Shown here: positions 15,375 through 58,122 of the stretch, piece by piece
Position numbering within the stretch: position 1 is the first letter of the stretch
Layout: each line of letters opens with the position of its first letter
Source: Parapedobacter soli
GTDB taxonomy: Bacteria; Bacteroidota; Bacteroidia; Sphingobacteriales; Sphingobacteriaceae
Length of the DNA stretch: 64,000 bases
Reading direction: 5' to 3'
Assembly: GCF_025460835.1 (NCBI RefSeq)
Contig: NZ_JAMXAY010000017.1
Span: 14,792-78,791, forward strand
The notes under the pieces: model-generated
What the model saw: only the letters and a program-made list of their open reading frames with translations
The model's database searches: none
What the model was told of the DNA's origin: nothing
Translations under genes and position numbers: made by a program

Positions 15375-15416
15375 TTCCTATATACAATCAAGTTAGTACA
15401 TTCACACTGCAACATG

Positions 15417-17255: not shown

Positions 17256-17266
17256 CGTATTTGATT

Positions 17267-20752: not shown

Positions 20753-20800
20753 TTTCTTAAGCGTTTAGTTAGTTAATGCATAAAATTAGGTGTGAAAAAA

Positions 20801-22048: not shown

Positions 22049-22083
22049 GCAACATTTATAAGGTCTACATTCAATTGGACATA

Positions 22084-22132: not shown

Positions 22133-22276
22133 TTAAAAAAAGCAAAAAAACACAAACTAAAAAGAACACCCACGCAGCTCATTAAACCTTCAATATATTG
22201 TTTATCAACATATTAAACAAAAAGGAGATTATCGGTTAAATGCTTGATTGCGATTTTATGCATGTTAAGGCGTGCT
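22133..22276. other. AT-rich intergenic DNA upstream of namZ
   Basis: No gene is seen here. The stretch is A-rich and contains the second exact copy of TTTATGCATGTT (22255-22266). With the flanking terminator and operator candidates it forms the 412-base gap between the two murein transcription units. Confidence 0.5.
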
Positions 22277-22311
22277 AAAAAAAGCCTGCATCCACATCGC
22301 GGACACAGGCT
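22277..22311 (-). terminator. Rho-independent terminator after the GHL10 gene
   Basis: On the minus strand AGCCTG (22311-22306) pairs with CAGGCT (22288-22283), with an inner TCC/GGA pairing, followed by a run of seven T (22283-22277). It separates the amidase-GHL10 unit from namZ. Confidence 0.7.
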
Positions 22312-22423
22312 CGTGCTTAATCTAATAGGCTCTTCTCACTATGGTGTATCCCACCAAACAGGTGTATCCAGCGACTCCTGGGTGGGGATACTGATTGAAT
22401 TATTTACTTGCCTCATAACCATT

Positions 22424-22472
22424 GTCTAATGTCTATTGTCTAATGTCTATTGTCTATCGTCTATTGTCTATC
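22424..22472. repeat. Tandem heptanucleotide repeat, seven units of GTCTAnn
   Basis: Seven consecutive 7-bp units read GTCTAAT, GTCTATT, GTCTAAT, GTCTATT, GTCTATC, GTCTATT, GTCTATC. The right end runs 12 bases into the GHL10 gene and supplies its last three codons and stop (DRQ-stop). Each unit carries TAG on the minus strand, so any change in copy number still gives an early stop. Confidence 0.9.
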
Positions 22473-23981: not shown

Positions 23982-24009
23982 TATTTGGTCATTTACGTAT
24001 ACTTATTAT

Positions 24010-30924: not shown

Positions 30925-30972
30925 TTCTTTTTCCTTTGTTTATTTTTCCTACGCCTTTCTTGGCAACATCTA

Positions 30973-32184: not shown

Positions 32185-32196
32185 ATCTATTTCTCC

Positions 32197-34869: not shown

Positions 34870-34875
34870 TTGTTG

Positions 34876-35883: not shown

Positions 35884-35921
35884 CTTTCCAAATTATACTG
35901 ATAGTGGCTTTCTAAGTTATA

Positions 35922-37589: not shown

Positions 37590-37610
37590 TTCAATAGCTT
37601 TTTGAACGAG

Positions 37611-40991: not shown

Positions 40992-41064
40992 TTTTTGTTT
41001 TTTTGGTTATAAAAAGTTATTCAATTGGGATCGGCTATGTTTAATGATGTTTCATACGCTCTTT

Positions 41065-42201: not shown

Positions 42202-42303
42202 AAAACCACTGTCGACTTGTTGTGCCCAAAGGGGCGCGGGAGCCGTGCGCTTTCTAATAAGACAAGATGATTACCGCCTTGTGTAAGACGAAAAGAAAAA
42301 AAA

Positions 42304-42855
42304 CTAAAAAATTCCCAACTTCAATCGGAGTTGCCGGATGGCATTACTGATTTGCTTCTTGACCGTGTTTTGGGAGATATGCAGTTTACCTGCAATTTCA
42401 TAGTAAGTAAGGCTATGCTTCCGGCTTAATTCGAACACTTCACGCATTTTATCCGGCAACCGGTTTAGCTCGTCCTCAATTTGCCGTGCCATTTGCTTTT
42501 CCCGGATGGCAAAATCTGCCGGGGCTTCCATCTGCTCCGAAAAGTGTACCAATGAAGCTAAATATTTATCCTTCACCTTGCTTCTCAGCAATAGGTTTAA
42601 TATCCGGTTACGCACTAATGCGTGGAGGTATGCAGAAAGCGAAATCCTGGGCTCGATGGCATGTGCCTTTTCCCACAGGGTGGTAAAGGTATCCTGTAGT
42701 ACATCCCTGATTTCATCTTCATCTCGCAATAATCGACGTGCCTGTCGGAACAATATTGGCCAGTATCGATCGTACAATGTGGCAAAGGCAGCCTCATCGC
42801 CTTCTCTAAGACGTTCCATCAACATTTGGTCGTTCAATGTTGCTTTGCGCTGCAT
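42304..42855 (-). CDS. ECF RNA polymerase sigma factor (Bacteroidetes RpoE-like)
   Basis: 183 residues. Sigma region 2 (residues 15-90): EAAFATLYDRYWPILFRQA and DEIRDVLQDTFTTLWEKA. Sigma region 4 (125-178): LPDKMREVFELSRKHSLTYYEIAGKL and ISQNTVKKQISNAIRQL, split here at the helix turn. The pair with FecR and an STN-SusC is a complete surface-signalling cascade. Its own promoter was not identified with confidence in the 83 bases upstream. Expected targets are susC and the genes after it. Confidence 0.94.
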   Translation of the reverse strand: MQRKATLNDQMLMERLREGDEAAFATLYDRYWPILFRQARRLLRDEDEIRDVLQDTFTTLWEKAHAIEPRISLSAYLHALVRNRILNLLLRSKVKDKYLASLVHFSEQMEAPADFAIREKQMARQIEDELNRLPDKMREVFELSRKHSLTYYEIAGKLHISQNTVKKQISNAIRQLRLKLGIF

Positions 42856-42938: not shown

Positions 42939-44660
42939 CTATTGCTGTTCCGGCCAAGCAGTTTCGATACCTTGGCTTCGGATAAATGATTGGAAATCCG
43001 CAAGGATCTTTCCGTCTTTCCGCACTTCAGCAGGTGTTAACGCCTTCTTGTGGGCATACGAAATAAGTAGCCCGACCGCTTCTCCGATACTCCACTCCAC
43101 GGGGTGGAGGCGATAACATCCGTTGGTGATGTGTGTCGTTCCGATATTTTTATTGGCCGGCAGCAAATTCTTCATCCGGATGGGCAGCAGGGCCCCCAAC
43201 GGAATCTGAAACCGCAAGGAATCAAAATCAACGTAATTTACCCGGTTGCTGCTGGGATGCAGATCGATGTGATAATAGCCGATACCCACACTATCGTAAA
43301 ATTCGGCGGCTTTGTCTTTATTGGTCTGCGCAACCCTTTCACGGTTTGCTTTGCCTACATGTTCCTCACGTATCGTAAACAACGCTTTGATGCGGCGCGA
43401 TTCACGTACATAAGGGTATTTCGCCAATCCGTCGCTTGTACCCATGATGTCTTTTCGCAGCCGTAGCCCCGGCCATCCTTTTCCGCCGTCTGGCCTGGGA
43501 GCTTCGGTTTGCAACCAATAAAGCAACGAAAGGCTCAATACCTTGGCGGCCGCTACATGCTTGTTAAATTCTTCTTCGGAAACCCCCACAATGTTACCCA
43601 GCATGTAGTCGTTCTGTGGCCAGTTTACCAACGTAATTTCCCCCGGGTACGTTCCGGGCACAAAATTAGCCTTACTAATAATTTTCCGGTAATTCCAAAG
43701 GTTCAGCGCATCGCCCGTTTCCCCTCCCCGGGGGTCAAACCCCAGTTTTTTTGGCTGAAGCGTTTTCGGATTGGAGTAGTGCAATTCCAGTAATTTTCCC
43801 GGCCAGGGCGGGGTAAGGTCTGGCACGTGATTCCGCCAGAAGGTATAATTGTCGGGTTTCTTGATGGTATGGTCTTCCCCCGGTATATAATCCATTGCGA
43901 AGCACATGGTAAACGCCTGGTTGTTGGACGGGTCGGCTTTTTCGGGCGCATGCAACTCATCGGTGTCCGTTTTCGACTCCGTTCCCGTAACAAACTCCGT
44001 TCCCGTAAGCGGCAATAAATCGCCCAGCTCTGTGGCGTCCACAAAAAAAGGCGCCGCCAGCTTTTTCATGGCTCCGGTCCGGCTTTCTTTTACATGGATT
44101 GCGTTCACTCGATCGCCATCTGTATCCGCGGCGGTGACCTTGTGCTCCAACAACAGTATTAGCTGTCCGGTGCTGAGGTATGGATTTAGCATATCGGTCA
44201 GCACGGCCAGGGCCACGCGTGGTTCGTGGCACAACTGCGACACAACACCGTTTCCGGGGTTTAATAGCGGATTATCCTTCGCCGCCTCAGTTAGCGGATA
44301 GTTTTTCCGATAGTAATCCCGCACGCCGTTCCGGAAGTCGCGGTACAGCTGCGTAGCACCGGTCGTTTCTATCCATGCGTGCTCATCGGGCGGCACCCCT
44401 TGCTGGGTCAGTTGTCCGCCGATCCAATCGGTTTCTTCGGTCATGATGACCGACTGCCCGTTACGGAGGGCAGCCATCGCTGCGGCGAAGCCACCCAAGC
44501 CGCCGCCCGCAATAACGACATCTGCTTCCAGCTGTTCCGTTCCATCGGATTTCTTAATCTGTTTAACCGCTGCCTGTGCAGATAAGCTCGATAACGGAGC
44601 AACTGCAAAAAGGCTGCTACCCACTGCTAATGTTTCTAAAAAATTCCTGCGTCTCATCAT
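42939..44660 (-). CDS. Tat-exported FAD-dependent oxidoreductase
   Basis: 573 residues. Twin-arginine signal RRRNFLETLAVGSSLFAVAP. FAD motif DVVIAGGGLGGFAAAMAAL near residue 48, with EETDWIGGQLTQQGVPPDEH after it, as in the FAD_oxidored family seen in carbohydrate loci. Later blocks: FVDATELGDLLPLTGTEFVTG, and a C-terminal NIGTTHITNGCYRLHPVEWSIGEA, split as NIGTTHITNGCYRLHP and VEWSIGEAVGLL. Tat export fits a folded flavoprotein acting in the periplasm. It is the last gene of the eight-gene run, 3 bases after the DUF4127 gene. Substrate unknown. Confidence 0.83.
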   Translation of the reverse strand: MMRRRNFLETLAVGSSLFAVAPLSSLSAQAAVKQIKKSDGTEQLEADVVIAGGGLGGFAAAMAALRNGQSVIMTEETDWIGGQLTQQGVPPDEHAWIETTGATQLYRDFRNGVRDYYRKNYPLTEAAKDNPLLNPGNGVVSQLCHEPRVALAVLTDMLNPYLSTGQLILLLEHKVTAADTDGDRVNAIHVKESRTGAMKKLAAPFFVDATELGDLLPLTGTEFVTGTESKTDTDELHAPEKADPSNNQAFTMCFAMDYIPGEDHTIKKPDNYTFWRNHVPDLTPPWPGKLLELHYSNPKTLQPKKLGFDPRGGETGDALNLWNYRKIISKANFVPGTYPGEITLVNWPQNDYMLGNIVGVSEEEFNKHVAAAKVLSLSLLYWLQTEAPRPDGGKGWPGLRLRKDIMGTSDGLAKYPYVRESRRIKALFTIREEHVGKANRERVAQTNKDKAAEFYDSVGIGYYHIDLHPSSNRVNYVDFDSLRFQIPLGALLPIRMKNLLPANKNIGTTHITNGCYRLHPVEWSIGEAVGLLISYAHKKALTPAEVRKDGKILADFQSFIRSQGIETAWPEQQ

Positions 44661-44663
44661 CTG

Positions 44664-46277
44664 TTAATTAAGGGCGCATTCGATATCAAAATCAATTTCA
44701 GCCTCAAATGTACGGTTCCAAGGTAGGGAAAAGCGGATATCGCCTATGCATTTGCAATGTATTTGTTGCTTCTCGGTGGCTACGTCTCTAAAAAACGTCT
44801 CGGTAAACCCGTCAAAGAAATCATGCATCAGCGTTCTCGCATATTGCTCCACGCCACGGGCTTGTTCCTCATCCATGATCAGTGATCCCAGACCTTCGGC
44901 TTTCATGTAGCCCTGCGTTTTTTTCCTGACTAAGTTATGGTAATAATAATCGTCCATTACGCGATGTAGCGTAAACCACCGATGTGCGGCCATGACCTTC
45001 CGGCTCGTCGCCGGATCGGTCATAAGCCGACTGTCTGTCAACGTAAAGATAAGCCCTTGGGGAAGTACGGTCCCAATCGTGTTACCCGCTGTATTCCACG
45101 AGGCATAGCCGCTAAGGCGCGGCATCAGCCCCTCGCGGATCAACAACGATGTAAAGGTCTCATCACCGCCCTGAATATTTCCGATGGGATCCACGTCCGC
45201 TACGGCCACCCGTTTTCCTTGCTCCACGTATCGGGCTATCTCTTCCACAAATGTTTCTGCCCGGCCGGCTACATCGCGGGAGGCAAATACAAAAAACAGC
45301 AGGTCTGCTTCTTCCTCGTCCTGCACTTCGCTTGCCCCAGCAGCCGCTAGGTGGTGACTCACGGTTTCCCGTAGCGGCACATCTTCATAGGGCATTACGG
45401 TATTGGCCTTTTCTTCCGAGCAATAGATGGCTTTCACCGCGGTACGCTGATGATGGAACGTGTTCAGGGCCCGGGCCAGGAGCAGCATAGACACCTCGTC
45501 GGCGCCCGGTTGTATCGCTACTTTGCTGGTTACGCCGAGTTCTTTGATTGCCTGTTTCAGCTTTTCCCGGTCTGCAACATGAATGCCAACCGGCGAGGCA
45601 TCGTCTTGCGAAAGGATCAGGAAATCGACCACGCCCTTTTTGACCAGACGGATGGCCGCTAGGTTACTCTGCAGGTTCCGCTTGCGGGCCCGGAGGTAGT
45701 TTTTCAGTATATGCCCAGGGATTTCCTTTTCGAATTCGGCCGTCCGTTGCCGTGATGCCGCATCCGTGGAGGCACTGATTTTTGCCCATTCAGAAAATTT
45801 ACTGTAATAGGCCGCATTTTCTCGGTCATATGTCAGCGCTAGCCGCATGATGACATTCTGTGCATAAATCTTTAGTCCGGGAGCCTTTGAACGCATCTCC
45901 TCCAATACCCGGATCCGCCGCAGCGCTGCTGACGAGCTCACCTGATACGTACGGGAGCCGACCAATCCGCCATACGCCAGCATGTCGACGGCTACGATGG
46001 CTGCATCATAAGTCGACAGATCCTGCGAACGGATCCATGAAACGATCCGATCGGATTGGCCGGGTTCCATAAACCGACCCCACAGCGCCCGGGGAGGCAA
46101 GACCACATCCACATCGCCGATCTCGCCCATCTTTTGGGGAAATTGCCAACTGCTTGGTCGATCATCCAGCGGCACCAGCAAAATTTTCATCTTTGCAGCT
46201 ACCGGACCAATCCCACCACATACAATGAGCGAGAATAACCCTATCCATCTGACTAACCACACCCTAACCGTCACCAT
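44664..46277 (-). CDS. Exported DUF4127 family protein
   Basis: 537 residues. A signal peptide (VWLVRWIGLFSLIVCGGIGPVAA) precedes MKILLVPLDDRPSSWQFPQK, the DUF4127 opening. Further family blocks: DMLAYGGLVGSRTY, DFLILSQDDASPVGIHV, IQPGADEVSMLLLARAL, RVAVADVDPIGNIQGGDE and GYASWNTAGNTIGTVLPQG. No activity is known for the family. The Asp/Glu-rich, Rossmann-like core looks like an enzyme. Many relatives appear to lack a signal peptide; this one is exported, as are its neighbours. It sits 10 bases after an unknown lipoprotein gene and 3 before the FAD oxidoreductase. Confidence 0.8.
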   Translation of the reverse strand: MVTVRVWLVRWIGLFSLIVCGGIGPVAAKMKILLVPLDDRPSSWQFPQKMGEIGDVDVVLPPRALWGRFMEPGQSDRIVSWIRSQDLSTYDAAIVAVDMLAYGGLVGSRTYQVSSSAALRRIRVLEEMRSKAPGLKIYAQNVIMRLALTYDRENAAYYSKFSEWAKISASTDAASRQRTAEFEKEIPGHILKNYLRARKRNLQSNLAAIRLVKKGVVDFLILSQDDASPVGIHVADREKLKQAIKELGVTSKVAIQPGADEVSMLLLARALNTFHHQRTAVKAIYCSEEKANTVMPYEDVPLRETVSHHLAAAGASEVQDEEEADLLFFVFASRDVAGRAETFVEEIARYVEQGKRVAVADVDPIGNIQGGDETFTSLLIREGLMPRLSGYASWNTAGNTIGTVLPQGLIFTLTDSRLMTDPATSRKVMAAHRWFTLHRVMDDYYYHNLVRKKTQGYMKAEGLGSLIMDEEQARGVEQYARTLMHDFFDGFTETFFRDVATEKQQIHCKCIGDIRFSLPWNRTFEAEIDFDIECALN

Positions 46278-46287
46278 CTGATTCTTG

Positions 46288-47181
46288 TTAATAACCTGAT
46301 CCGCTTATGTTTATTTTCTCCGCGCCAACCTTCAGTTCTTCGTCGGTGGCAATGATATTAAAATGGTTCCGTCCGGGACATCGCATATCGGTAAACCGCT
46401 GGTTGTGTACCGGAACCTCCACGACTTCCCCTTCGTACAGCCGGAAATAATGGGTTTCCTTCCATTCGGCTCCGGTCACTTCTGTTTGTGTAGGCTGTAC
46501 AGGTTTACCTTCGTTGGCCACCTGGTCAATGGCGTTCACCCGCTTGAACTCACCGAAGCTATTCACGTTATATCCATCGCAATCAAAGTCACGCTCAAAC
46601 CGCTTACCTTCGCCGGCGACCACAAACCGGATTTTTTTGTTTTCCAGCACCCTGATGGATATCTCTACCTCATCTCCCGGATACCAATAGTACTGACTTT
46701 CAGCAGGTGCATTCTCGTAGGCTGCCTGCTGCCCCGTCGCGGAATAGCCTGTCCGCCGGAGGAAAGGGCGGAATGCCCGGCGGTCGGCCGTCACGTTCCC
46801 GTTTTCATCCCGGATCACCTCCCATGTCAATCCGATATCCGTTTCCTGGCCGCCCATGTTGCCGCCCAGATAAATCGACGGATTGTCGAGATATTGCCCG
46901 GGCTTGTTCGGATTTTTGCGGTTTTCATCAAAGGTGATTTGCGGCAGCACAACCTTTCCGCCGATACCCAGCCATTTATCTTTACTAGATACCACTTTCC
47001 GGTAATAAGCGCCGCTGAAACACGGCAGCGTTTCACTAGGCCGTACTTCTCCCTTAAAAAACGTGGTAATCGGATCCCCTCCCGTTTCGGGTTCATCCGG
47101 AGTTGCTTTTTCCTCGCTGCAGGCCAGCAAAACCGTCCATAGGAGCATTGCAAAACCGGCAATAAATGATAATTTCTTCAT
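46288..47181 (-). CDS. Lipoprotein of unknown function in the DUF4127 locus
   Basis: 297 residues. Lipobox LLAC at residues 18-21 (WTVLLACSEEK), then an acidic linker. The mature part is beta-rich with WLGIGGKVVLPQITFDENR, IYLGGNMGGQETDIGLTWE and YYWYPGDEVEISIRV, suggesting a carbohydrate-binding or concanavalin-like sandwich, but I do not recognise a family. It is 10 bases from each neighbour, so it belongs to the operon. A surface-binding role beside SusD is a guess from position. Confidence 0.6.
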   Translation of the reverse strand: MKKLSFIAGFAMLLWTVLLACSEEKATPDEPETGGDPITTFFKGEVRPSETLPCFSGAYYRKVVSSKDKWLGIGGKVVLPQITFDENRKNPNKPGQYLDNPSIYLGGNMGGQETDIGLTWEVIRDENGNVTADRRAFRPFLRRTGYSATGQQAAYENAPAESQYYWYPGDEVEISIRVLENKKIRFVVAGEGKRFERDFDCDGYNVNSFGEFKRVNAIDQVANEGKPVQPTQTEVTGAEWKETHYFRLYEGEVVEVPVHNQRFTDMRCPGRNHFNIIATDEELKVGAEKINISGSGY

Positions 47182-47190
47182 ATTCGGAAC

Positions 47191-48999
47191 TTAATTTTCA
47201 AGTTTATACAGCTGTAAACCGATATTCGTGCAGGCAAACACCGCGTGCAATTTACCATTGATCACTGCCATATCGGCATCCATGGTATTATTTCCATTGG
47301 GTTCGCCCGAAGCCATCCATTTTTCAAAGATCGGCTGTTGGTAGGAATTGGCGCCGCCATCTGTAATATCGCAAATCCGGAACAACGCCCCCTTTCCGGA
47401 GACGTACGCTGTATACGCCAGATACGTGCGGCCGTTGTATTCCTTTATCTTGCAATCCGACGTCATGATGCCCGACTGTTGAAAATCAGCGTCGAAGGTG
47501 CTGGTCAGCGATGCAATTCCGCTGAAACTATTGCCAACAATCGCACTGACATAGCCGTCGGTTCCGATTGGCATCGGTTCCACGCTCCAGTAATAAGCGG
47601 TGCGATCAAACGGAATAGCGAACTTAGATGGCGTTTTGTTTAGCACGCCTCCCTGCACCTTCCACACGTATACTTCAGAACGCTGCGCAAGGCCCACGGT
47701 AATGATCGCGTCCCCATCGAGGCTACCGGTTATGTTGATGCCTGCTGTCCGCGGATTCGCATCGATGCCCAGTGTGGCCTTCGAATATGTGATATAGGGA
47801 ACCGGTTTTGCAGTGACGTTATCCCACCGGTAAATCGTCTGCTGATCACTGGTAATACCCAGCGATACCACGAGCAGTCGCCCTTCGTCGTCCGACGCCA
47901 GTTTACGCAAGCTGTGCGCAATTTCCACCCCTGTCTTGTCCAGCATACCTACCGGTTTGCCGTCCAAGTCGTAGTAATTGGGCCCAATCTCGGTAGGTGC
48001 CACCGCGGAATAATTGGCAATGACGATATGGTTGCCGCTGAAGGCGACGCCCGCCATATCGTTTGCACCGAAACCGAACTGGTTGTAAGTTTTTTCCACC
48101 AGTGGCGTCAAGGATAACCTTGGCCGCGCGATGGTGAATGTCTTTTCTATCCCATCCGACCCGGTTATTTTCACTTGGTTGTCGCCCGCCAGCAAATTAA
48201 GCCCTTTTCCCGTAAATGCGGGGTCCAACCGGTTTCCAAACCCGGTTTCCAGCACCACGTCGGCAGCTGAAAAATCGGCCAGACCCGTTATATATGGAAC
48301 CAGTGTCGAGCTTTCGACCACGACCACGGAATCCGTGGGTACGCCGTTGATGGTCATTCCCTGCACTGACGCCGGCCCGACATCCTGCGTTGTGATGATG
48401 AAATCGTACGTATAGCGCGTCTCTTCATCGACCGCTAGTAGGGTGAGGCTCTTCGGTTCCGTATAATCGTCCGCTTGGCCATTGGCGAAATCAACCAACG
48501 TACCGTTCAGGAATTCTAGGGTAACCGCCAGATTGGAAAGGTCGGTTCCTTCGGGAACCTGGACAATGAGCGATGCTTCGGCAAAATGGATGTGGTCGGC
48601 CTCCACAGCCAGCCCTTCGATGATGAAGCTAGCCAATGCGGGGGGCGACTGAACTTTCAGCGTCACTTCGCGTTGACTGCCATCAGCCCCTTTCAGCTGA
48701 ATGTTAAGGGGCTTACGGCAATCGTATTCCCTGCTGTTCTCAAATCCTACCAATTCCCCATTGGCAACCAATAACTGTAGATTTACACGGGAAAGATCTT
48801 GCCCTGCCGGAAGTGTAACCACCACCGACTGATCATTATTTTGCGGCAGGAAAAGGTCGCCGTTTATTTTTACGCCGACAATGTCTACGCCCTCAAAGGC
48901 TCTGTCGTCTAATTTTTCCTTTTCACAGGAAACTGTCAATACGCAGGCGAACATCAGCGTCAGGATGCTAGGCCACGTTACGATTCGTATCTTTTTCAT
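47191..48999 (-). CDS. Surface lipoprotein, DUF5018-like, with beta-propeller region
   Basis: 602 residues from the ATG at 48999, which gives the signal KIRIVTWPSILTLMFACVLTVSC; in-frame ATGs at 49011 and 49044 add a hydrophilic prefix, and the last overlaps the susD stop. Residues 30-290 look like tandem Ig-like domains of the DUF5018 type (VVVTLPAGQDLSRVNLQL, LIVQVPEGTDLSNLAVTLEF: two similar repeats). Residues 300-600 resemble a beta-propeller (GRLLVVSLGITSDQQTIYRW, MDADMAVINGKLHAVFAC). Probably an accessory glycan-binding protein at the surface. It lies 25 bases after susD. Confidence 0.65.
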   Translation of the reverse strand: MKKIRIVTWPSILTLMFACVLTVSCEKEKLDDRAFEGVDIVGVKINGDLFLPQNNDQSVVVTLPAGQDLSRVNLQLLVANGELVGFENSREYDCRKPLNIQLKGADGSQREVTLKVQSPPALASFIIEGLAVEADHIHFAEASLIVQVPEGTDLSNLAVTLEFLNGTLVDFANGQADDYTEPKSLTLLAVDEETRYTYDFIITTQDVGPASVQGMTINGVPTDSVVVVESSTLVPYITGLADFSAADVVLETGFGNRLDPAFTGKGLNLLAGDNQVKITGSDGIEKTFTIARPRLSLTPLVEKTYNQFGFGANDMAGVAFSGNHIVIANYSAVAPTEIGPNYYDLDGKPVGMLDKTGVEIAHSLRKLASDDEGRLLVVSLGITSDQQTIYRWDNVTAKPVPYITYSKATLGIDANPRTAGINITGSLDGDAIITVGLAQRSEVYVWKVQGGVLNKTPSKFAIPFDRTAYYWSVEPMPIGTDGYVSAIVGNSFSGIASLTSTFDADFQQSGIMTSDCKIKEYNGRTYLAYTAYVSGKGALFRICDITDGGANSYQQPIFEKWMASGEPNGNNTMDADMAVINGKLHAVFACTNIGLQLYKLEN

Positions 49000-49024
49000 A
49001 ACCTGATTCATTTCTTGCTTGAGT

Positions 49025-50902
49025 CTATTCACCATATCCTGCATTCTGTGTCAGCCAGGGGGCTTTGTTCCGTTCGGTCTGTGGAATTGGCCACAGATAC
49101 AGCTTGTCGTCCCACATGCGATCTCTATCGCGCACCCTCAGTTTGCTTGCATATGCCTGATAGCTGGCTATATCGTTGAGGTCGCGTTCCGATCCGGCCG
49201 GCCCATACGACGGCACCATATCCGGCGTAACCTGCTCATATCCGTCGGGATAAATTCCCTGGGCCGCATTGACGCCGCTTGCCAACGGGTAGCCGTAGGT
49301 AGGCTCCGCGTTTTGCAGGTCGCCGATACGCCACCTACGCATATCAAAGAAATGCAAAGATTCCCGGGAAAACTCAACCTTGCGTTCGCGTCTGACAATT
49401 TGCCGCATCTTGGCCTCATCACCGTTGCGCGATGGGTCTACGGTGAGGATCCCCGGCATGCCGACCCTGGTTCGTACCTGATCGACCGCATTTACAACCG
49501 TCGCATCCATCTCACCAAGTTCAATTTTGGCTTCTGCATAGTTCAGCAGTATTTCTGCATACCGCATAATCAGGATGTTATAGGTAGGCGTTGCTGATGC
49601 CTCATCGTCAAAGTGGTTATACTTTTTCCAGGCAAAGCCGACACCGCTCTGTACGTACCCATATTGAGCTACTGCCCCGGCATAGTCCGCGTTGTCCACT
49701 TCCCGCTCGTTTCCCTCGGCATCCCACGCTTTGGTTTTGGGCTTGTACAATTCCATCAGAAATTTCTGCTTATTGCTTCCTGTATTTCCGATGATTGTAT
49801 CGTGGTGCGTATAGATGGAATACTTTAATCGGGGATCCCGGTTATCAAAAGGTTTTTTCGGATCGTATCCGGACCCCGGTTCGTCAATCCGCTTTCCGTT
49901 GGCCATCTCGTAGGTGTCAACCAATTGCTGCGTTGGGAACCGTCCGCTTTGTCCGATCATCCGAACTTGTTCACCGAGCGACAGGTAATGTGTACTTTTG
50001 CTTCCAAAATCCGAAAACATCATGAACAACATCGTCTCGCTCTTCGCGTCGGCTTTTAGCTGCCCCGCGCGGGTAAAGAGGTCGTTGAAGTTATTAGCCA
50101 AGCTGCGGCCACTTTCATCCATTACCCGTTTTGCTGCGGTTTCGGCGTGCCGGAAATAGGCTTCTGCCTTCGCGTCGTCTGTCGCTCCATCTTTTCCGTA
50201 TCCGAATTTCGCCCATGAACCGGCATAAAGTGCAATCCGCGATTTAAGGCCTAACGCTACGGATTTATCAACCCGACCCCACTCCAGTGCCGTCCACGGA
50301 AGCACCGCTACAGCTGCATCCAAGTCAGCAATAATCAGGTCCACGACCTCGTTCCACGGTGTCCGTTCCACGCTCCTGAGTTGCTCGGCGGTAACCCCGA
50401 TGGGAAAATAAGGAACATCACCATACAGGCTAACCAGTTGGATGTAAAAGTGCGCCCGGAGGGTCTTTATCTCTGCCAGGTAAATTTTGGCGTTGTCATT
50501 CAACTGATCGTAAAAAGGTGCAGCGCCATCCAGTACTGTATTGCAGCGGGCAATGGAGGTATATAATATCGCCCACGTTTGCTCATTCGTGAAATTTGAA
50601 CGCAGGTCTACATTGCCCACCCCTATCGATGTATTGTCTGCCCGCTCAATGCCAAACGGCGTGTACATATCCCACAGCACGGACAGCGGGATGGAAGATG
50701 AACTCGCATGATCCATCTTCAAGCGCTGGTATACACCATTGGCACCTTGCCGGATGGCTCCTTCGTTGTTATAGAAATTAGACGACAGGTAGTCGCTGAG
50801 CGGTTCGCGGTCCAGGTAGTTCTCGCAGCCGGACGTGAGCGCCAGGGCGACCACCGAAATCCAGAAGACGGGAATCGATACCTTTTTATTTCGTTCTTTC
50901 AT
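49025..50902 (-). CDS. SusD/RagB family lipoprotein (ROK/AGE locus)
   Basis: 625 residues from ATG 50902 (ATG 50914 adds four residues). Signal ending in LTSGC, then ENYLDREPLSDYLSSNFYNN. C-terminal hallmark RRERKVEFSRESLHFFDMRRW and the closing YLWPIPQTERNKAPWLTQN are typical. It begins 20 bases after susC ends. Probable surface binder of the sugar imported by the locus. Confidence 0.94.
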   Translation of the reverse strand: MKERNKKVSIPVFWISVVALALTSGCENYLDREPLSDYLSSNFYNNEGAIRQGANGVYQRLKMDHASSSSIPLSVLWDMYTPFGIERADNTSIGVGNVDLRSNFTNEQTWAILYTSIARCNTVLDGAAPFYDQLNDNAKIYLAEIKTLRAHFYIQLVSLYGDVPYFPIGVTAEQLRSVERTPWNEVVDLIIADLDAAVAVLPWTALEWGRVDKSVALGLKSRIALYAGSWAKFGYGKDGATDDAKAEAYFRHAETAAKRVMDESGRSLANNFNDLFTRAGQLKADAKSETMLFMMFSDFGSKSTHYLSLGEQVRMIGQSGRFPTQQLVDTYEMANGKRIDEPGSGYDPKKPFDNRDPRLKYSIYTHHDTIIGNTGSNKQKFLMELYKPKTKAWDAEGNEREVDNADYAGAVAQYGYVQSGVGFAWKKYNHFDDEASATPTYNILIMRYAEILLNYAEAKIELGEMDATVVNAVDQVRTRVGMPGILTVDPSRNGDEAKMRQIVRRERKVEFSRESLHFFDMRRWRIGDLQNAEPTYGYPLASGVNAAQGIYPDGYEQVTPDMVPSYGPAGSERDLNDIASYQAYASKLRVRDRDRMWDDKLYLWPIPQTERNKAPWLTQNAGYGE

Positions 50903-50922
50903 AATACGTATCATTTTTTAGG

Positions 50923-53900
50923 TTAAAACTTCAGATCCAGACCAAAGGTGTACGTTTTCATAATGGGATAAAATTCTCCGCCCAGCGAGCCACCGTAGCT
51001 TACTTCCGGATCGTATCCTTTGTAGAAATTGCTGAGGGTAATCAGGTTCTGGCCGCTTACATACAACCGAATGCTACCGACACCCATCCGCTTCGTAAAG
51101 GGGTTGTTGAGCGTATATCCCAGCATCACGTTTTTCAATCTGCCATAAGAAGCATCGCGAACCCATTTATCAGAGCGCACGAAATTGTCCGCGGAATTAG
51201 CTTCAGGAACCAGTATGGGGTAATCGGCGTTCGGATTGTCTTCCGACCAGTAATCCAGCTGATGCCTAAATAAGTTTGCCCCGTTGGCAAACGGCTTCAA
51301 ACCGATGCCGCTCAGAAATGCCGATCGCTTGCCAACGCCCTGAATAAAGGCTGTGAAATCAAATTGCCGCCACGACGCATTGAGGGTCAGCCCATATTCC
51401 ATATGCGGGAACGGATCGCCAAGGTAAACCAAGTCGCGGGAATCAATCACCATCGGGTCAACGCCTTCTCCCTCATAAATCTTTTTATATTTCACGTACC
51501 CTGGGCGGACACTTTTACTCAGTGCCGGCGAGGATGCCACGTCGTCCCAGTCGGTGTAATAGCCATCGGTTAGGTATCCCCAAACGCCGTTATTCGGGTA
51601 TCCCTCTACCATGGAGCGGTCTTGTGTAGTCAATCCATTCAGGTTTGTGATTTCGTTTTGGTTGTCGTTGAGTGATAAGGTTACACCATACCGGAACTCA
51701 TTGATTCTTCCTTTATGCCCGATACTGATTTCCCAGCCCCGGTTCTCCATATCGCCGGCATTGGAAAACGCTGGTTGCATCCCCGCATAGTACGGCAATG
51801 GGAATTTGAGCAGCATGTCATAAATGGATTTCACATAGTAGTCTGCGGTAACTGACAATTTATCGTTCCATAGATTCACATCCACCCCCACATCAAATTG
51901 CTTCGATTTTTCCCACAGAATATTGGCATTTGCCAGCGCAGTCTGTGCAACGCCCGAAGCCAATTCCTTGTTGTCGCCCAAGTAATACCCATATCCGGGA
52001 TTAACCGTGGCCGTATAGGGATAGTTTCCGATATCCTGATTACCGAGCACACCGTACGAAACACGGATCTTCAGCATATCCAGGTAGTTCGACGTTGCCT
52101 CCATGAAGTCTTCCGCCGAAACAACCCAGCCCGCCGATACTGACGGGAAAAAGCCCCAGCGGTTTTTAGTAATAAAACGAGAAGACCCATCGTAGCGACC
52201 GTTGACTTCCAGCAGGTACTTTTCGGCAAAGTTGTAGTTAATCCTGCCATAGCCAGACATCATGGCCCAACTGTTGGCACCGCCACCCGATGTAGCTGTG
52301 GCACCGTCGCCATTGCCCAGGTAATAGCGCCCCAGCTCAAACCCGCGCTTGCTGCCAAAGAACGATGAGAAATGGCTGTCTTCGGCCTGGAAACCTGCCA
52401 AGATCTTTGCATAGTGCTGACCGTGTTGTTTTTCATACGATCCCTGGAACCGGTAGAAATTGCGGATCGTCTCTTGCCAACCTTCTTGCAGGTTGTCTTG
52501 CGATGGGTACATCCCCATTACAGCTCCCTTCAGGGACACCGTATAGGGAAGGATGAGACTACGGTCACGGAGGGTTACATTGCGATACGAATATTGCCCG
52601 ACCAATTCCAGTCCTTCTAAGGGCGTTAATGTAAGTGTACCATTTAGCAAGACCTCCGAATTTTTATCCAGTTGTTCGCCGCTATCATTGGCCTGAGCTG
52701 CAGGGTTGTCACCATTTTTGCCATAGCCCCAATGGCCATCCAGCTCTTTGGCCGCAGACAGCGTGGGCAACATATACAATGCCTTATTGATGATGCTTTT
52801 CGGCGTGCTCACACCCGGTGCTTTTGTCGTAGATTGCCGCAGGTTGGTATTTAGCGCTAACCGAGCCCAAGGTGCCAGTTGTGCGTCCGCATTGACCCGA
52901 AAATTCACCCGTTTGTAGCTATTGTTGGGAATCAGTCCATCTTGGTGCAGGTAAGAGCCTGCCCCAAAGAACCTGATCCGCTCCGTTCCTCCCTGTATCG
53001 ACAGGCTATGTTTTTGCAGGAGCGAAACGTCCTTCATCGTGGCGTCTCTCCAATCGGTATCGTAGCGATTCCAGTTATCCGGTCTAAGGTTCTTCTGATC
53101 TTCAATCAGCTTCAGCTGTTGTTCGCGTTGCGTGGGAGACACCGAAATGCCCGCATTGTCCCAAGCCTTTAGCTCCGCATCCAGGTATTCCCACGCATCT
53201 ACCGCTTCGGGCATGTTTGTGGGCTGCTGCAATGTGGTATAACCGTTGTAAGTCGTTGAAATTTTCCCCGCAGTGCCTCGCTTGGTGGTGATCAGGATGA
53301 CGCCGTTGGACGCCCGGGACCCATAGATGGATGCCGAAGCGGCATCCTTCAGTACGGAGATACTTTCTACAGTGTTGATGTCAACCTGGTCTATACTCAT
53401 CTCGATACCGTCTACCAACACCAATGGGAAAGTGGTTGAGTTGATCGATCCGATACCCCGTATCCGGATGTTGGAACCGTCTGCACCCGGTTGACCAGAT
53501 GTTTGCTGGATGGTAACCCCGGGCATGGTACCCTGCAAGGCTGTCGAAAGCGATGCAACACTCCGTTTGGCAATATCAGTTGCGCTAACTGCGGATACCG
53601 ATCCGGTTAGGTTTGCCTTCCGTTGCGTACCGTACCCTACCACCACCACTTCGTCCAATTGGTTTTCTGCCAATTGAAGGGTAACGGCCAGCTGTTTCTG
53701 TTCACCTACCGTCTGGCTGAACGGTTCGTATCCGACCAGTGAAAATTCGAGCATGTCTCCCGATGCGGCTTCCATCAAAAATGCACCCTCCGCATCCGTT
53801 ATGGCAACGCGCGACGTTCCCGCAACCCGCACCGTAACACCTTGCAAGGCTTCACCGGCTTCGTTCACCACTTTACCGGCAATCCCCGCTTGCTGCAGCC

Positions 53901-54036
53901 AGCCGATAACCGACGGACTCGGGGCGCTTTTCTTTGCAATGGAGCTCATTGGCAGCAGAAAACAAACCATCATAAGCGCCTCCAACGGTATGGATGGTCT
54001 TCCTCTGCCGACTTTCGTTCTTTTTTTTGGATTCAT
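50923..54036 (-). CDS. SusC family TonB-linked transporter (ROK/AGE locus)
   Basis: 1037 residues from ATG 54036; an ATG two codons earlier is possible. The N-terminus is basic, with a hydrophobic segment (LEALMMVCFLLPMSS). Carboxypeptidase-regulatory domain near 55-130 (IAGKVVNEAGEALQGVTVRV), signature LDEVVVVGYGTQRKANLTGSV, plug VLKDAASASIYGSRASNGVI, barrel ending FGLDLKF. No STN domain, consistent with control by a cytoplasmic repressor such as the nearby ROK protein, not by FecR. A 121-base gap separates it from the MFS gene. Confidence 0.94.
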   Translation of the reverse strand: MNPKKRTKVGRGRPSIPLEALMMVCFLLPMSSIAKKSAPSPSVIGWLQQAGIAGKVVNEAGEALQGVTVRVAGTSRVAITDAEGAFLMEAASGDMLEFSLVGYEPFSQTVGEQKQLAVTLQLAENQLDEVVVVGYGTQRKANLTGSVSAVSATDIAKRSVASLSTALQGTMPGVTIQQTSGQPGADGSNIRIRGIGSINSTTFPLVLVDGIEMSIDQVDINTVESISVLKDAASASIYGSRASNGVILITTKRGTAGKISTTYNGYTTLQQPTNMPEAVDAWEYLDAELKAWDNAGISVSPTQREQQLKLIEDQKNLRPDNWNRYDTDWRDATMKDVSLLQKHSLSIQGGTERIRFFGAGSYLHQDGLIPNNSYKRVNFRVNADAQLAPWARLALNTNLRQSTTKAPGVSTPKSIINKALYMLPTLSAAKELDGHWGYGKNGDNPAAQANDSGEQLDKNSEVLLNGTLTLTPLEGLELVGQYSYRNVTLRDRSLILPYTVSLKGAVMGMYPSQDNLQEGWQETIRNFYRFQGSYEKQHGQHYAKILAGFQAEDSHFSSFFGSKRGFELGRYYLGNGDGATATSGGGANSWAMMSGYGRINYNFAEKYLLEVNGRYDGSSRFITKNRWGFFPSVSAGWVVSAEDFMEATSNYLDMLKIRVSYGVLGNQDIGNYPYTATVNPGYGYYLGDNKELASGVAQTALANANILWEKSKQFDVGVDVNLWNDKLSVTADYYVKSIYDMLLKFPLPYYAGMQPAFSNAGDMENRGWEISIGHKGRINEFRYGVTLSLNDNQNEITNLNGLTTQDRSMVEGYPNNGVWGYLTDGYYTDWDDVASSPALSKSVRPGYVKYKKIYEGEGVDPMVIDSRDLVYLGDPFPHMEYGLTLNASWRQFDFTAFIQGVGKRSAFLSGIGLKPFANGANLFRHQLDYWSEDNPNADYPILVPEANSADNFVRSDKWVRDASYGRLKNVMLGYTLNNPFTKRMGVGSIRLYVSGQNLITLSNFYKGYDPEVSYGGSLGGEFYPIMKTYTFGLDLKF

Positions 54037-54157
54037 TATCATTGTTTTAGTTGGTTAGATTCGTAAAATAAAACTTGACAGTCATACATTGTCCGTGTAA
54101 CCGTCTATCATCGTCACTGGTTCCACCGTTGATTGGAAATTTTCATCCGCGTATCCA

Positions 54158-55399
54158 TTATTCGGCCCGCCTCGGCTGGTATCCGCGCCAGGCAAAAAAC
54201 ACGATATACAAATAACAGATAAGTGGCAAACCAAAAGAGACCTGCCAACTAAAGCGATCGATTAACAACCCCTGTAGGTAAGGAATCACGGCGCCACCAA
54301 CAATAGCAGAAGAAAGAAGGCCGGAAGCCCGTGTTGTGTGTGTTCCGAGTCCATGGATGGAAAGCGAAAATACAATAGCGAACATCACCGAGTTACATAG
54401 GCCTACAGCAACCATGCTCCACACGGCCAAATAACCAGTGGAGAAAACGGAAAGCAAGATTAAGCTAATGGATGCCGCCCCCATCCAACGGAGCACTACC
54501 TCCGGTTTGACCACCTTCAACACCAATGATCCGAGCAATCTACCTACCAACATACCGCCCCAGTAAAACGAGACATAGGTGTTGGCCATATGCTCTTCGA
54601 TACCGATGGTGTCGGCGATGTAGTTGGTTAGAAAGGTGCCGATGGCTACTTCGGCACCGACATACATAAATAAAGCAACGAGCCCAAATTTGAGGTGCCT
54701 GAAAGAGAAAATCCCGGCCTTTACATCATGAGACGCGCCTGTCGGCCCGCTTTTGGTAATCATCGTGGGTAGGGCTATACAAGAAACAACCACCGCGATG
54801 ATCACCAAGATGCCACCTATGCCCAAATAAGGTATGCTTACGGCATTATTCGCCACACCAGAGGTAGATATCTTGGATAGTATAAAGTGTGCTCCAAAAA
54901 GGGGCGCAACGGTTGTACCTATAGAGCCGATACCTTGTATAATGGTAAGTCTTGATGATGCGGTCTCTGGTTTCCCAAGTAATGTAATATAAGGGTTGGC
55001 GGCTACTTGCAGTAAAACAATACCAATAGCGAGAATAAATAAGGCGCCGAGGAATACGCCGTACTGGTGCCACAAAGAAGCCGGATAAAAGAGAAAAGCG
55101 CCAATACCGGCTATTGCAAAACCGTAAACCATCCCGCGTTTGTACCCTACTTTTTCAACGATCCTTCCCGCTGGCACTGACATAACCGCGTAGGTGAGAA
55201 AAAAATAGAACTGCACTAAGGCTGAGTCGGCATAGCTCAACGCAAATCCCGCCTTGAAAAATGGCACCAACGTGTCGTTCAAGCACGTGATGAAACCCAT
55301 CATGAAGTACAAAACAGCCAATACGACGAGCGCAGGCGTATAGCGCCGCCCATTATTGGTACTGCTTGTCATCGGACTATTTACAACCCCTAATGCCAT
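54158..55399 (-). CDS. MFS sugar permease, FucP/GluP type
   Basis: 413 residues with 12 membrane segments. Family signatures: ALVVLAVLYFMMGFITCLND, VGYKRGMVYGFAIAGIGAFLF, VLLQVAANPYITLLGKPETA and RLTIIQGIGSIGTTVAPLFG. Relatives move L-fucose, glucose/galactose or GlcNAc with protons. A start at 55372 (MTSSTNNGRRY) is equally possible. The gene starts 3 bases after the epimerase stop, so the two are translationally linked. An acylamino sugar is the likely cargo, by context. Confidence 0.88.
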   Translation of the reverse strand: MALGVVNSPMTSSTNNGRRYTPALVVLAVLYFMMGFITCLNDTLVPFFKAGFALSYADSALVQFYFFLTYAVMSVPAGRIVEKVGYKRGMVYGFAIAGIGAFLFYPASLWHQYGVFLGALFILAIGIVLLQVAANPYITLLGKPETASSRLTIIQGIGSIGTTVAPLFGAHFILSKISTSGVANNAVSIPYLGIGGILVIIAVVVSCIALPTMITKSGPTGASHDVKAGIFSFRHLKFGLVALFMYVGAEVAIGTFLTNYIADTIGIEEHMANTYVSFYWGGMLVGRLLGSLVLKVVKPEVVLRWMGAASISLILLSVFSTGYLAVWSMVAVGLCNSVMFAIVFSLSIHGLGTHTTRASGLLSSAIVGGAVIPYLQGLLIDRFSWQVSFGLPLICYLYIVFFAWRGYQPRRAE

Positions 55400-55402
55400 A
55401 CG

Positions 55403-56602
55403 TTATGTATATTGAATCAGTGTGTTCCGTTGTGTCGTCCGCATGTCTTCCATCGTTCTCCACAGCTGAAACAGCCCCCGCGGCACGTGGAAGCACCCTT
55501 TCCATTTTCCACCTTTCAACGGAAGGAGTACTTCCCCTTGCCGATTGAGATAACCGTACCACTCCCCTCCTTCAGCATCGGGGAAATGGGACCAAGTATA
55601 CTCGTGGAGCCTGTTGAACCATTCGGCGCAACGCTGGTCGCCCGTGTGCAAGTAACCTTTCGCAAATGCGATCATCGCTTCGATATGTACCCACCAAAGC
55701 TTTTGGTCCCACTCTAGTTGTTGCAGGGGCTTGCCTTTTACATCCAAAAAATAAAAGATACCACCATAGGTTTTATCCCAGCCGTATTCGACAAGCTGTA
55801 CGGCGATGTCGATAGCTTGCTTCATCAGTTCCGTACTACCGGTGCGTTTAGCAAGGTCCATCACAAACCACATCGCTTCCAAGCCGTGGCCGGGATTCAC
55901 CAACCGGCCGTCAAAAGAATCGGAAAATTGACCATCAGTGGTTACGTTTTCCAAAACGACACCGACATCGGGTTGATAGAACGTTTCCATAACGGACTGG
56001 ATGCCGTACTGGATGGTACTATCGACCAGATCGGATTCAATCAAATGTTCAATCTCGAGCACCAAGTTGCATAGGATCATCGGTAATGCGAAATTCTGCA
56101 GTGGTCGCGTATCCGGATATTGCTTGTTGTACTTTCCCTTCGGGTCAGCCTGGCGCCGCAAGATATTGTTGAACGTGTTCTTTGCAATAACAGCATATTC
56201 CGCCCGGCCGGTAGCTTTGTATAATTGACCGAAGGCCATGGCAGCAAAGCAGTCCGAGAAAATATTATAGGGCTGAACCAAGGGCCGCCCCTCCCGATTC
56301 ACCGCGAAATACCAATTCCCCTGCGCATCGGTGCCGTGGGCTTCGAGGAAATCAGCACCAATCTGTGCTGCATCGAGCCATTCTTGCCGCTTCTCAACGG
56401 TATTATAAAGCATTGCGAATGTCCAGACCTGTCGAGCTTGCAGCCAAATAAACTTATCGGTATCGTAAACACCGCCCGACTCGTCTAAACAGCTGTAGTA
56501 ACCCCCATATTCGGTATCGAGTGAGTTTAACAACCAAAAGGGAACTACATCATCTAACAATTGGCGCTTATACAGGTCCGCCAACCCATCGGTATCAATC
56601 AT
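55403..56602 (-). CDS. N-acylglucosamine 2-epimerase (AGE) family protein
   Basis: 399 residues from ATG 56602 (MIDTDGLADLYKRQLLDDV), which matches how AGE proteins open; a frame open to 56644 adds 14 residues of poor fit. The (alpha/alpha)6 barrel carries KFIWLQARQVWTFAMLYN, PDTRPLQNFALPMILCNLVLE, NPGHGLEAMWFVMDLAKRTG (catalytic His region) and KLWWVHIEAMIAF (second catalytic His). AGE enzymes interconvert GlcNAc and ManNAc; related enzymes act on free sugars or cellobiose. First gene of the run, divergent from the ROK regulator. Confidence 0.88.
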   Translation of the reverse strand: MIDTDGLADLYKRQLLDDVVPFWLLNSLDTEYGGYYSCLDESGGVYDTDKFIWLQARQVWTFAMLYNTVEKRQEWLDAAQIGADFLEAHGTDAQGNWYFAVNREGRPLVQPYNIFSDCFAAMAFGQLYKATGRAEYAVIAKNTFNNILRRQADPKGKYNKQYPDTRPLQNFALPMILCNLVLEIEHLIESDLVDSTIQYGIQSVMETFYQPDVGVVLENVTTDGQFSDSFDGRLVNPGHGLEAMWFVMDLAKRTGSTELMKQAIDIAVQLVEYGWDKTYGGIFYFLDVKGKPLQQLEWDQKLWWVHIEAMIAFAKGYLHTGDQRCAEWFNRLHEYTWSHFPDAEGGEWYGYLNRQGEVLLPLKGGKWKGCFHVPRGLFQLWRTMEDMRTTQRNTLIQYT

Positions 56603-56892
56603 ATTATTTTCGCACACTACATGTAAACGTACCTCGGCCATCAATTGGCCTATAATTGTGACTGCTAAATAAAAATATAAATTTTAATAATCCAAATTAT
56701 TTTTAAATATTTTTTTTATATACCTGACATTAAATAAATTTTTTGGTTATCTATTCCCTATTATTTTGTGTGAAACGGACAGTCACTCCTATTTAATGGA
56801 GGCACCGTCCGTACATAGGTAGAAATAATCAGGTTATTTTTAATTTTTTTTAAAAATGTATACATTTGCATATCCATGGTAATATATATCCG
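56603..56892. promoter_or_regulatory. Divergent AT-rich promoter region between the AGE operon and the ROK gene
   Basis: TACATTTG at 56861-56868 is a full TAnnTTTG match for the ROK gene and lies 24 bases before its ATG at 56893; it also rules out the in-frame TTG at 56866. An imperfect hairpin pairs ACGGAC (56775-56780) with GTCCGT (56807-56812). The rest is very AT-rich. Operators for the ROK protein are likely here, but none could be fixed. Confidence 0.5.
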
Positions 56893-58122
56893 ATGACGAC
56901 TACTTTCTTTGATGAATTGCACAGTGCTGAGCTTTCGGGCGTGGCCTATAAAAATGTGCAGCTAAAAAAGAGGATACTCGCCCATTTTGCAAATGAGGGG
57001 AGCACTACACTGGCCGATCTTAGTAAAGAGATCAACACGAGCATACCGAAGATAAGCGACCTTGTCAACGGACTCATTGCCGATGGGTTGGCCAAGGACT
57101 ATGGAAAGTCAGGTTCGGGTGTCGGCCGTAGACCGAATTTGTATGGCCTAGAGCCCGATTCGGCATTTTTCATCGGCGTTGAAGTAAAGAAATCGCACAT
57201 CAACATTGGCCTGATGGACTTCAAGCGCAGCCTCATTAAAGTGACCATGGGCATCCCCTACCTGCTGAATAACACGGAAGAGTCGCTGAACACCTTATGT
57301 ACGGTTATCGATGAGTTTATCCGCGCCAGTTCGGTGCAGCGCGAAAAAATCCTCGGAATCGGCGTTAACCTCACGGGTCGCATCAATTACAAAACCGGAT
57401 ACAGCTATAGTTTCTTCAACTTCCACGAGGACCCGTTAAGCAAGATCATAGAGGCATACATCGGTATCCACACTTTTCTCGAAAACGACTCGAGGGCCAT
57501 GGCCTACGGCGAATTTTGCAACGGCGCAGTACGCGAAGAAAAGGATGTGCTGTTTGTGAACCTCGACCACGGCATTGGTATGGGCATCATGGTTAATGGC
57601 CAGCTTTACTATGGCAAATCGGGTTTCGCAGGTGAAGTGGGGCATATACCGATGCTCGACAATGAAATCCTATGCCATTGCGGCAAAAAGGGCTGCTTGG
57701 AAACCGAAGCCTCGGGCGAAGCGATTACCCGCATATTCAAGGAGCGGCTCAGCAAAGGGGCTACCAGCATTGTTACAAACAAACGCCCTGTAGTTGACGA
57801 AATCACCTTGGAAGATATCATAGAAGCGGCCAACAACGATGATACATTGGCCATCGAGCTCATTACAGAAGCCGGCGAGAAAATTGGCAAGGGCATGGCT
57901 ATGTTGGTGAACCTTTTCAATCCCGAATTGATTATCCTTGGTGGATGCTTGGCCACCACGGGCGATTACATCCGGCTGCCCATCAAAAACGCCTTGAATA
58001 AATACTCACTAAGCCTGGTGAATAACGATACGCAGTTGGCCATTTCCCAATTGGCAGACCGGGCTGGCATCACCGGCGCCTGCCTGCTGGTGCGCGATCG
58101 CTTACTCGCTATTACTTCCTAG
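56893..58122 (+). CDS. ROK family transcriptional regulator (NagC/Mlc-type)
   Basis: 409 residues. Winged helix at residues 12-80 (KNVQLKKRILAHFANEGSTT, LADLSKEINTSIPKISDLVNGL). The ROK sugar-binding domain follows: FLENDSRAMAYGEF, DHGIGMGIMVNGQLYYGKSG, GEVGHIP and the zinc motif CHCGKKGCLETEASGEA. The N-terminal DxGxT phosphate motif of ROK kinases is missing (GVEVKKSHINIGL), so this is a repressor and not a kinase. It is divergent from the AGE-MFS-SusCD run, which it probably controls in response to an amino sugar. Confidence 0.9.
   Translation: MTTTFFDELHSAELSGVAYKNVQLKKRILAHFANEGSTTLADLSKEINTSIPKISDLVNGLIADGLAKDYGKSGSGVGRRPNLYGLEPDSAFFIGVEVKKSHINIGLMDFKRSLIKVTMGIPYLLNNTEESLNTLCTVIDEFIRASSVQREKILGIGVNLTGRINYKTGYSYSFFNFHEDPLSKIIEAYIGIHTFLENDSRAMAYGEFCNGAVREEKDVLFVNLDHGIGMGIMVNGQLYYGKSGFAGEVGHIPMLDNEILCHCGKKGCLETEASGEAITRIFKERLSKGATSIVTNKRPVVDEITLEDIIEAANNDDTLAIELITEAGEKIGKGMAMLVNLFNPELIILGGCLATTGDYIRLPIKNALNKYSLSLVNNDTQLAISQLADRAGITGACLLVRDRLLAITS

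Follow-up and report, generated by a model that had tools for sequence, protein, structure and literature searches.

A conserved, probable amino-sugar utilisation locus of Parapedobacter soli with an uncharacterised core of a DUF4127 protein and a flavoprotein

Within a 64,000-nucleotide stretch of the Parapedobacter soli genome (contig NZ_JAMXAY010000017.1, positions 14,792 to 78,791), hereafter the window, we analysed a locus of nine genes, eight on the minus strand (42939-56644) and a divergent ROK-family gene on the plus strand. A first-pass annotation had described eight tightly spaced genes with a divergent ROK regulator, and the order, strands and coordinates of all nine were recovered in this 5.17-Mb Parapedobacter-type genome. 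From the gene of the FAD-dependent oxidoreductase to that of the N-acyl-D-glucosamine 2-epimerase (AGE), the intergenic gaps were 3, 10, 9, -20, 8, 115 and 3 bp. The negative value is an overlap between the genes of a 617-aa lipoprotein (LP617) and SusD, the largest gap separated the SusC gene from that of a major facilitator superfamily (MFS) permease, and all other gaps were 10 bp or less. The locus is a mosaic of a capture block (SusC-SusD-LP617-LP297), a cytoplasmic block (MFS-AGE-ROK) and a core consisting of the flavoprotein and a protein of the DUF4127 family. It is a conserved amino-sugar utilisation locus, in which the SusCD frame feeding N-acetylglucosamine (GlcNAc) metabolism is familiar and the two-gene core is uncharacterised. 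Most likely, it serves to take up a sugar polymer with N-acetylated amino sugars. The recurrence of DUF4127 and a flavoprotein beside a 2-epimerase for N-acetylmannosamine (ManNAc) and GlcNAc in several distant bacterial groups would mark an unrecognised step of amino-sugar breakdown.

Both core proteins carry export signals. The flavoprotein, a PF12831 FAD-dependent oxidoreductase (42939-44660, minus strand; Pfam E 6e-98), has a twin-arginine signal (MRRRNFLETLAVG...) with an RR motif and a hydrophobic stretch, and the adjoining DUF4127 protein (44664-46277, minus strand; Pfam E 8e-142), the enzyme candidate at the centre of the module, has a signal peptide.

The AGE protein (55403-56644, minus strand) exceeded the NCBIfam equivalog cut-off in a full-length match (NF052547, 697 vs 600 bits). 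It scored 540 bits to 6f04 and 526 bits to 2gz6, solved GlcNAc 2-epimerases of cyanobacterial type, whereas its scores to cellobiose epimerases did not exceed 82 bits, and it keeps the motifs NPGHG, LEWDQ and FHVPR, which presumably hold the catalytic residues. By these matches it is an epimerase of the GlcNAc/ManNAc type and not a cellobiose epimerase, which supports the amino-sugar assignment already made in the first-pass annotation. Two AGE-family genes of the host genome passed the cut-off, and nagA and nagB were found elsewhere in the genome. The neighbouring gene encodes a predicted MFS sugar:H+ symporter of the GluP/FucP/NagP group (54158-55399, minus strand; TIGR01272, 283.7 bits, cut-off 202.6). 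It had been called a FucP-type permease; the GluP subfamily cut-off was passed and that of FucP was not. The divergent ROK-family regulator (56866-58122, plus strand) combines a helix-turn-helix (HTH) with a ROK domain (HTH_24, 21.2 bits vs a cut-off of 21.9; PF00480, E 7e-55). Its earlier description as NagC-like holds for this domain arrangement but not at the level of equivalogs, since it fell below the NagC and Mlc cut-offs (200.6 vs 650 bits for NF047937 and 188 vs 530 bits for the other). The AT-rich intergenic region between the divergent genes (56645-56865) is predicted to contain both promoters and a candidate ROK operator; a search there for operators returned imperfect palindromes and nothing else.

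Bacteroidota nan operons have a skeleton of AGE, MFS, ROK and SusCD genes, and the window locus resembles them in its epimerase, symporter, ROK protein and SusC/SusD pair (NanO/NanU in nan operons). It might accordingly be read as an unconventional sialic-acid locus, in which DUF4127 or the flavoprotein would replace the sialate lyase or process a modified sialic acid. Besides the common skeleton, such a reading can draw on sialidase-like BNR_2 genes beside a flavoprotein-MFS-AGE set (L122) and beside a DUF4127-FAD pair (G429), and on NanE neighbours of DUF4127 in Bacillota. However, the window locus lacks a sialate lyase, a sialidase and a sialate esterase, as the first-pass annotation had noted for the first two, and has instead DUF4127, the flavoprotein, two lipoproteins and a ROK protein with an HTH. 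The best NanA match in the whole genome reached 136 bits against a cut-off of 382, the SusD protein scored 29.5 bits against the NanU profile (cut-off 425), and DHDPS/NanA families did not recur in the neighbourhood of loci with AGE, NanE or FAD genes. We therefore consider a sialic-acid locus highly improbable.

The capture block begins with a SusC/RagA TonB-dependent transporter (50923-54042; TIGR04056, 901 bits) and an adjacent SusD-like glycan-binding lipoprotein (49025-50914; PF07980, E 3e-45), an arrangement typical of SusCD polysaccharide utilisation loci. These are followed on the same minus strand by LP617 (47191-49044), a surface lipoprotein with a lipobox, and by LP297 (46288-47181), a 297-aa lipoprotein of a family with no Pfam or NCBIfam entry. 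The C-terminal part of LP617 is weakly DUF5018-like, and its score of 26.7 bits, below the Pfam cut-off of 38.2, does not sustain the DUF5018 label given to it earlier. The structural model of LP297, with a pLDDT (predicted local distance difference test) of 60, was too poor for function, and we retained from it only the call of a predicted beta jelly roll. With its SusC/SusD tandem, surface lipoproteins, divergent regulator and inner-membrane permease, the locus is built like a polysaccharide utilisation locus. It differs in having no recognised carbohydrate-active enzyme: a Pfam search of the window operon found no known glycoside hydrolase or polysaccharide lyase gene, and the presumed depolymerising or debranching step would fall to DUF4127, which may itself be such an enzyme. 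Relatives do have such genes, namely GHL10, which joins the capture block and stands at the same spot in Parapedobacter indicus, and GH20 in other homologous loci.

The LP297 family occurred in 42 of 399 genomes of the host's family. Its loci carry the phosphodiester glycosidase NAGPA, GHL10-DUF4985, DUF4434, paired SGNH hydrolases, DUF5009, GH20, AGE and ROK; in the searched library we found no literature on combinations of DUF4434, DUF4985, DUF5009 and GHL10. Related loci that share LP297, AGE or the flavoprotein with the window likewise have GHL10 and NAGPA phosphodiester glycosidases. One set of Sphingobacteriaceae loci (L151-L168; LP297, NAGPA, GHL10-DUF4985, DUF4434, SGNH, AGE) resembles the window locus in the LP297 family, AGE, ROK and SusCD, and two of them (L152 and L153) share the SusC-SusD-DUF5018LP-LP297 block at 57-77%, but they contain recognisable hydrolases and no DUF4127.

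The GTDB genome collection was scanned with a DUF4127 alignment, which gave 525 relatives. The best 80 of the 525 were retained with flanks of up to 10 kb, and the neighbourhood counts cover 81 DUF4127 loci and, for Bacteroidota, 15, with genes counted within the fetched stretch only, which is truncated at some loci. DUF4127 was rare in Bacteroidota: among the genomes sampled, one of 395 from the phylum and four of 399 from the family had it, the host included. The nearest named relative at the locus, P. indicus RK1, keeps the whole locus with 69-94% protein identity gene by gene, highest for SusCD and lowest for AGE and MFS. It has one extra lipoprotein gene, between LP297 and DUF4127, which clusters with GHL10-type glycosyl-hydrolase-like proteins; the corresponding spot in the window is only 10 bp wide and lacks the gene. 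The host has GHL10 genes at two other places, of which one (22461-23981) is in the window. Among the 15 Bacteroidota loci, the flavoprotein was present in 13, SusC in 13, SusD in 12, AGE in 10, MFS in 10 and ROK in 9, and the AGE and ROK genes of P. indicus, which sit just past its fetched stretch, are not included in this tally. The neighbourhood comparison that the first-pass annotation had proposed beforehand thus found DUF4127 and the flavoprotein kept together with the rest. With two AGE-family genes, as in the host genome, an AGE gene would lie within about 10 kb of DUF4127 by chance in about 0.8% of genomes, compared with 10 of 15 loci observed; this estimate ignores kinship among the loci, so that the formal probability is too small. 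Spirosoma, Telluribacter, Adhaeribacter, Dyadobacter and Siphonobacter have AGE, MFS, DUF4127, SusC, SusD and FAD genes and usually ROK, in several gene orders, often adjoined by GH20 or a glucose/sorbosone-dehydrogenase-like protein. Since the gene orders differ among related loci, selection appears to act on the association of the genes, and the locus is conserved rather than a chance neighbourhood.

In other phyla, the epimerase beside DUF4127 is exchanged. DUF4127 clustered with NanE, MurR/RpiR regulators and import by a phosphotransferase system (PTS) or ATP-binding cassette (ABC) transporter on plasmids of Carnobacterium (pCAR50) and Priestia megaterium. The latter additionally has a family-10-like glycosylhydrolase and shares a PF12831-like flavoprotein and ROK with the window locus. 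These clusters resemble the window locus in placing DUF4127 beside a ManNAc epimerase activity and differ from it in their PTS or ABC import, cytosolic DUF4127 and phospho-sugar epimerase. In Deinococcus, DUF4127 directly follows an FAD-dependent oxidoreductase, with a NagZ-type GH3 in the same cluster. Over the 81 loci, AGE was found in 10, NanE in 9 and a family of 235-aa proteins in 22, and never two of them together, although no single pair was statistically significant alone. One of the three was present in 41 of the 81 loci: in 25 of 28 with a flavoprotein and in 16 of 53 without (Fisher p 3e-7, uncorrected for kinship). The 235-aa family (L058:1781-2491, L052:3493-4194 and 20 other loci) had no Pfam or NCBIfam match; its hhalign alignment to NanE over 198 columns (E 1e-4, probability 55%) makes it a probable NanE-like TIM barrel and a possible new epimerase of ManNAc or its 6-phosphate (ManNAc-6-P). 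MurR/RpiR regulators, ROK, a NagK-like kinase, a NagB-LmbE fusion, GH20, GH3 and DgaE also recurred near DUF4127. What stays constant is that ManNAc or ManNAc-6-P is converted into the GlcNAc series with no sialate lyase involved; ManNAc would then have to come from a glycan.

GHL10, to which we take DigH to belong, is one of several neighbours, with GH20 and GH3, that would suit a locus for chitin and GlcNAc or for peptidoglycan. There, DUF4127 and the flavoprotein would act on oligosaccharides of GlcNAc and N-acetylmuramic acid (MurNAc), such as denuded glycans, and AGE would balance a side pool. DigH degrades denuded glycans (PMC12288456), and the window contains a NamZ-GHL10-amidase locus at a distance of 17 kb. 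Nevertheless, a ManNAc epimerase (AGE, NanE or NanE-like) in 25 of the 28 flavoprotein loci is left unexplained by this alternative, and the window already has that dedicated peptidoglycan locus; we regard it as unlikely.

Two further proteins recur next to DUF4127 in several phyla (L027, L030, L038, L042, L052, L055, L065, L076): one is hydantoinase-A-like and about 714 aa long, the other a permease of 410-440 aa with no Pfam match. A family of 385-484 aa with no Pfam match, partly with signal peptides (cluster 16), lies beside it in Zipacnadia and Clostridium (L047, L058, L065, L084). A divergent paralogue of about 600 aa stands directly upstream of PBSX-like phage-tail genes on Paenibacillus-looking contigs (L177-L194); it came from viral contigs and was not used for function, and the phage search for DUF4127 gave one fragment only.

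DUF4127 is a large family, with hundreds of members from several phyla in one scan, and no named function; no mention of it was found in the searched library, and a PDB sequence search with its profile gave nothing useful. An AlphaFold2 model built from 61 sequences, with plasmid-derived rows left out, had a mean pLDDT of 94 and a pTM (predicted template modelling score) of 0.92. Foldseek matches to DJ-1 and xylose isomerase in the PDB had low TM-scores and were treated as noise. A second structure aligner (VIA) matched residues 27-276 to several SGNH esterases with Z 8-10.4, where the usual background is 7-8, and a root-mean-square deviation of about 4, so that the first domain of the model is likely, but not certain, to be SGNH-like. 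Fourteen residues were invariant in the 61 sequences (D38, R40, R109, R145, R198, D260, E298, D361, W394, N395, N399, W520, R522 and E525), and no lysine, cysteine or histidine was; H233 occurred in 49 and S108 in 60. Since the invariant residues include five arginines and several acids and no Lys, Cys or His, the active site would be arginine- and acid-rich and suited to an anionic substrate, and it is unlikely to be that of a Schiff-base aldolase. The missing invariant lysine of class I aldolases also tells against DUF4127 as a substitute for sialate lyase.

The flavoproteins beside DUF4127 fell into about three PF12831 subfamilies, with 50-90% identity to the window protein inside its subfamily and 20-24% outside, which suggests that they were recruited repeatedly. 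A PDB profile search gave no match for the window flavoprotein outside its FAD-binding end, and PF12831/FAD_oxidored was mentioned in the searched literature only in a flavoproteome study; it is only the FAD family of the protein that points to an oxidation. By a crude hydrophobicity test of export, Bacillaceae such as Neobacillus and Lentibacillus, and also Spirosoma sordidisoli, have a signal peptide on DUF4127 and none on the flavoprotein, whereas neither protein seems to be exported in Clostridium and Evansella. Because the predicted locations differ in Bacillaceae and in S. sordidisoli, the two proteins need not share a compartment, and we rejected the idea that they always form one exported complex. 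Extracytoplasmic oxidation before import, as proposed in the first-pass annotation, is not supported as a general scheme.

The window-type flavoprotein was found in 41 of the 399 family genomes, and some of its other surroundings recall the 3-keto-glycoside pathways, in which GFO/IDH/MocA, GMC dehydrogenase and gluconate-dehydrogenase-3 proteins are partners. On this model, the flavoprotein would oxidise a hydroxyl of a hexosaminide, and DUF4127 or a lipoprotein would eliminate the aglycone. The window-type flavoprotein stands beside GMC and Gluconate_2-dh3 in two loci (L125, L129), beside GMC alone in two more (L126, L130), and beside a GFO-GSDH-NucH-GFO block of the kind that adjoins the window locus in another (L124); GFO and AP_endonuc_2 neighbours also fit. 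The operon itself, however, has neither GMC nor GFO, and some DUF4127 loci have a cytosolic flavoprotein or none, which makes an oxidative pathway of this type quite improbable here.

The computation shows the locus itself and that it is conserved, that its epimerase is an AGE, that NanE takes the place of AGE in other phyla, and which proteins have export signals; the chemistry of the core, the glycan and the regulation are inferred as follows. The window locus may be a polysaccharide utilisation locus for a ManNAc/GlcNAc glycan, probably an anionic bacterial envelope polymer, with DUF4127 and the flavoprotein as its core; as a whole, we hold this model tentatively, at somewhat less than an even chance. 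SusCD and the two lipoproteins would bind oligosaccharides and bring them across the outer membrane. The periplasmic DUF4127, a putative new glycosidase or lyase, would free ManNAc or a ManNAc derivative, and the twin-arginine-exported flavoprotein would oxidise (or reduce) its substrate or product. The symporter would take up the N-acetylhexosamine, AGE would convert ManNAc to GlcNAc, nagA and nagB would complete the pathway, and the ROK protein would repress the divergent operon unless the sugar is present. Candidate glycans are a ManNAc-GlcNAc secondary wall polymer and the ManNAc-GlcNAc linkage unit of teichoic acid. ManNAc-GlcNAc repeats form the backbone of secondary cell-wall polymers of Paenibacillus and Bacillus, often pyruvylated, and wall teichoic acid is built on a lipid-linked GlcNAc-ManNAc disaccharide (PMC6030368). 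A bacterial-envelope source would agree with the phosphodiester glycosidases and GHL10 proteins found as partners and with the peptidoglycan locus nearby. Neither that peptidoglycan locus nor the P. indicus GHL10 gene nor the replacement of AGE by NanE across phyla had figured in the first-pass annotation.

Several findings weigh against this model. The GH20 and GH3 neighbours suit chitin-type or peptidoglycan glycans equally well. Since 37 family genomes have the flavoprotein but lack DUF4127, it is not strictly linked to that protein. No epimerase gene lies within 10 kb in about half of the 81 loci, and four Paenibacillus-type loci have a glucosaminate-type pathway instead, still an amino-sugar context, with DUF4127 followed by an amidohydrolase, a glucosaminate ammonia lyase of the DgaE type and a PfkB kinase; because of both, ManNAc may not be the product of DUF4127 in every case. 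The likeness to SGNH enzymes is modest (Z about 10), whole-model Foldseek matches are weak, and the invariant Ser/His pair of SGNH enzymes is not evident, D38 rather than a serine standing after strand 1.

That DUF4127 is repeatedly found with a ManNAc epimerase and a flavoprotein gives the family a first concrete functional context. It would make two uncharacterised families into steps of a single amino-sugar pathway, possibly one that recycles the wall polymers of bacteria in soil. A wider proposal, which we think rather unlikely, is that DUF4127 founds a new carbohydrate-active family for ManNAc-containing anionic glycans and, with the PF12831 flavoenzyme, carries out a redox-assisted release of ManNAc in Bacteroidota, Bacillota, Acidobacteriota and Deinococcota; we know of no described pathway of this kind.

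Elsewhere in the window, the apparent peptidoglycan locus (9244-25797, minus strand) comprises an SSF symporter, a SIS-domain (MurQ/GKRP-type) protein, SusD, SusC, a NamZ exo-muramidase, GHL10 and Amidase_3. An unusual 1223-aa fusion of a calcineurin-like phosphoesterase, a PQQ-type beta-propeller and a CelD_N-GH9 module is encoded at 11716-15387. A second SusCD locus (29839-42855), which is next to the DUF4127 locus in two genomes of Parapedobacter, carries ECF sigma/FecR, two GFO/IDH/MocA proteins, a GSDH-PKD-cytochrome c-CBM6 protein and a nucleoside-type symporter. The GFO-GSDH-NucH-GFO block of this second locus is the one found beside the window-type flavoprotein in L124.

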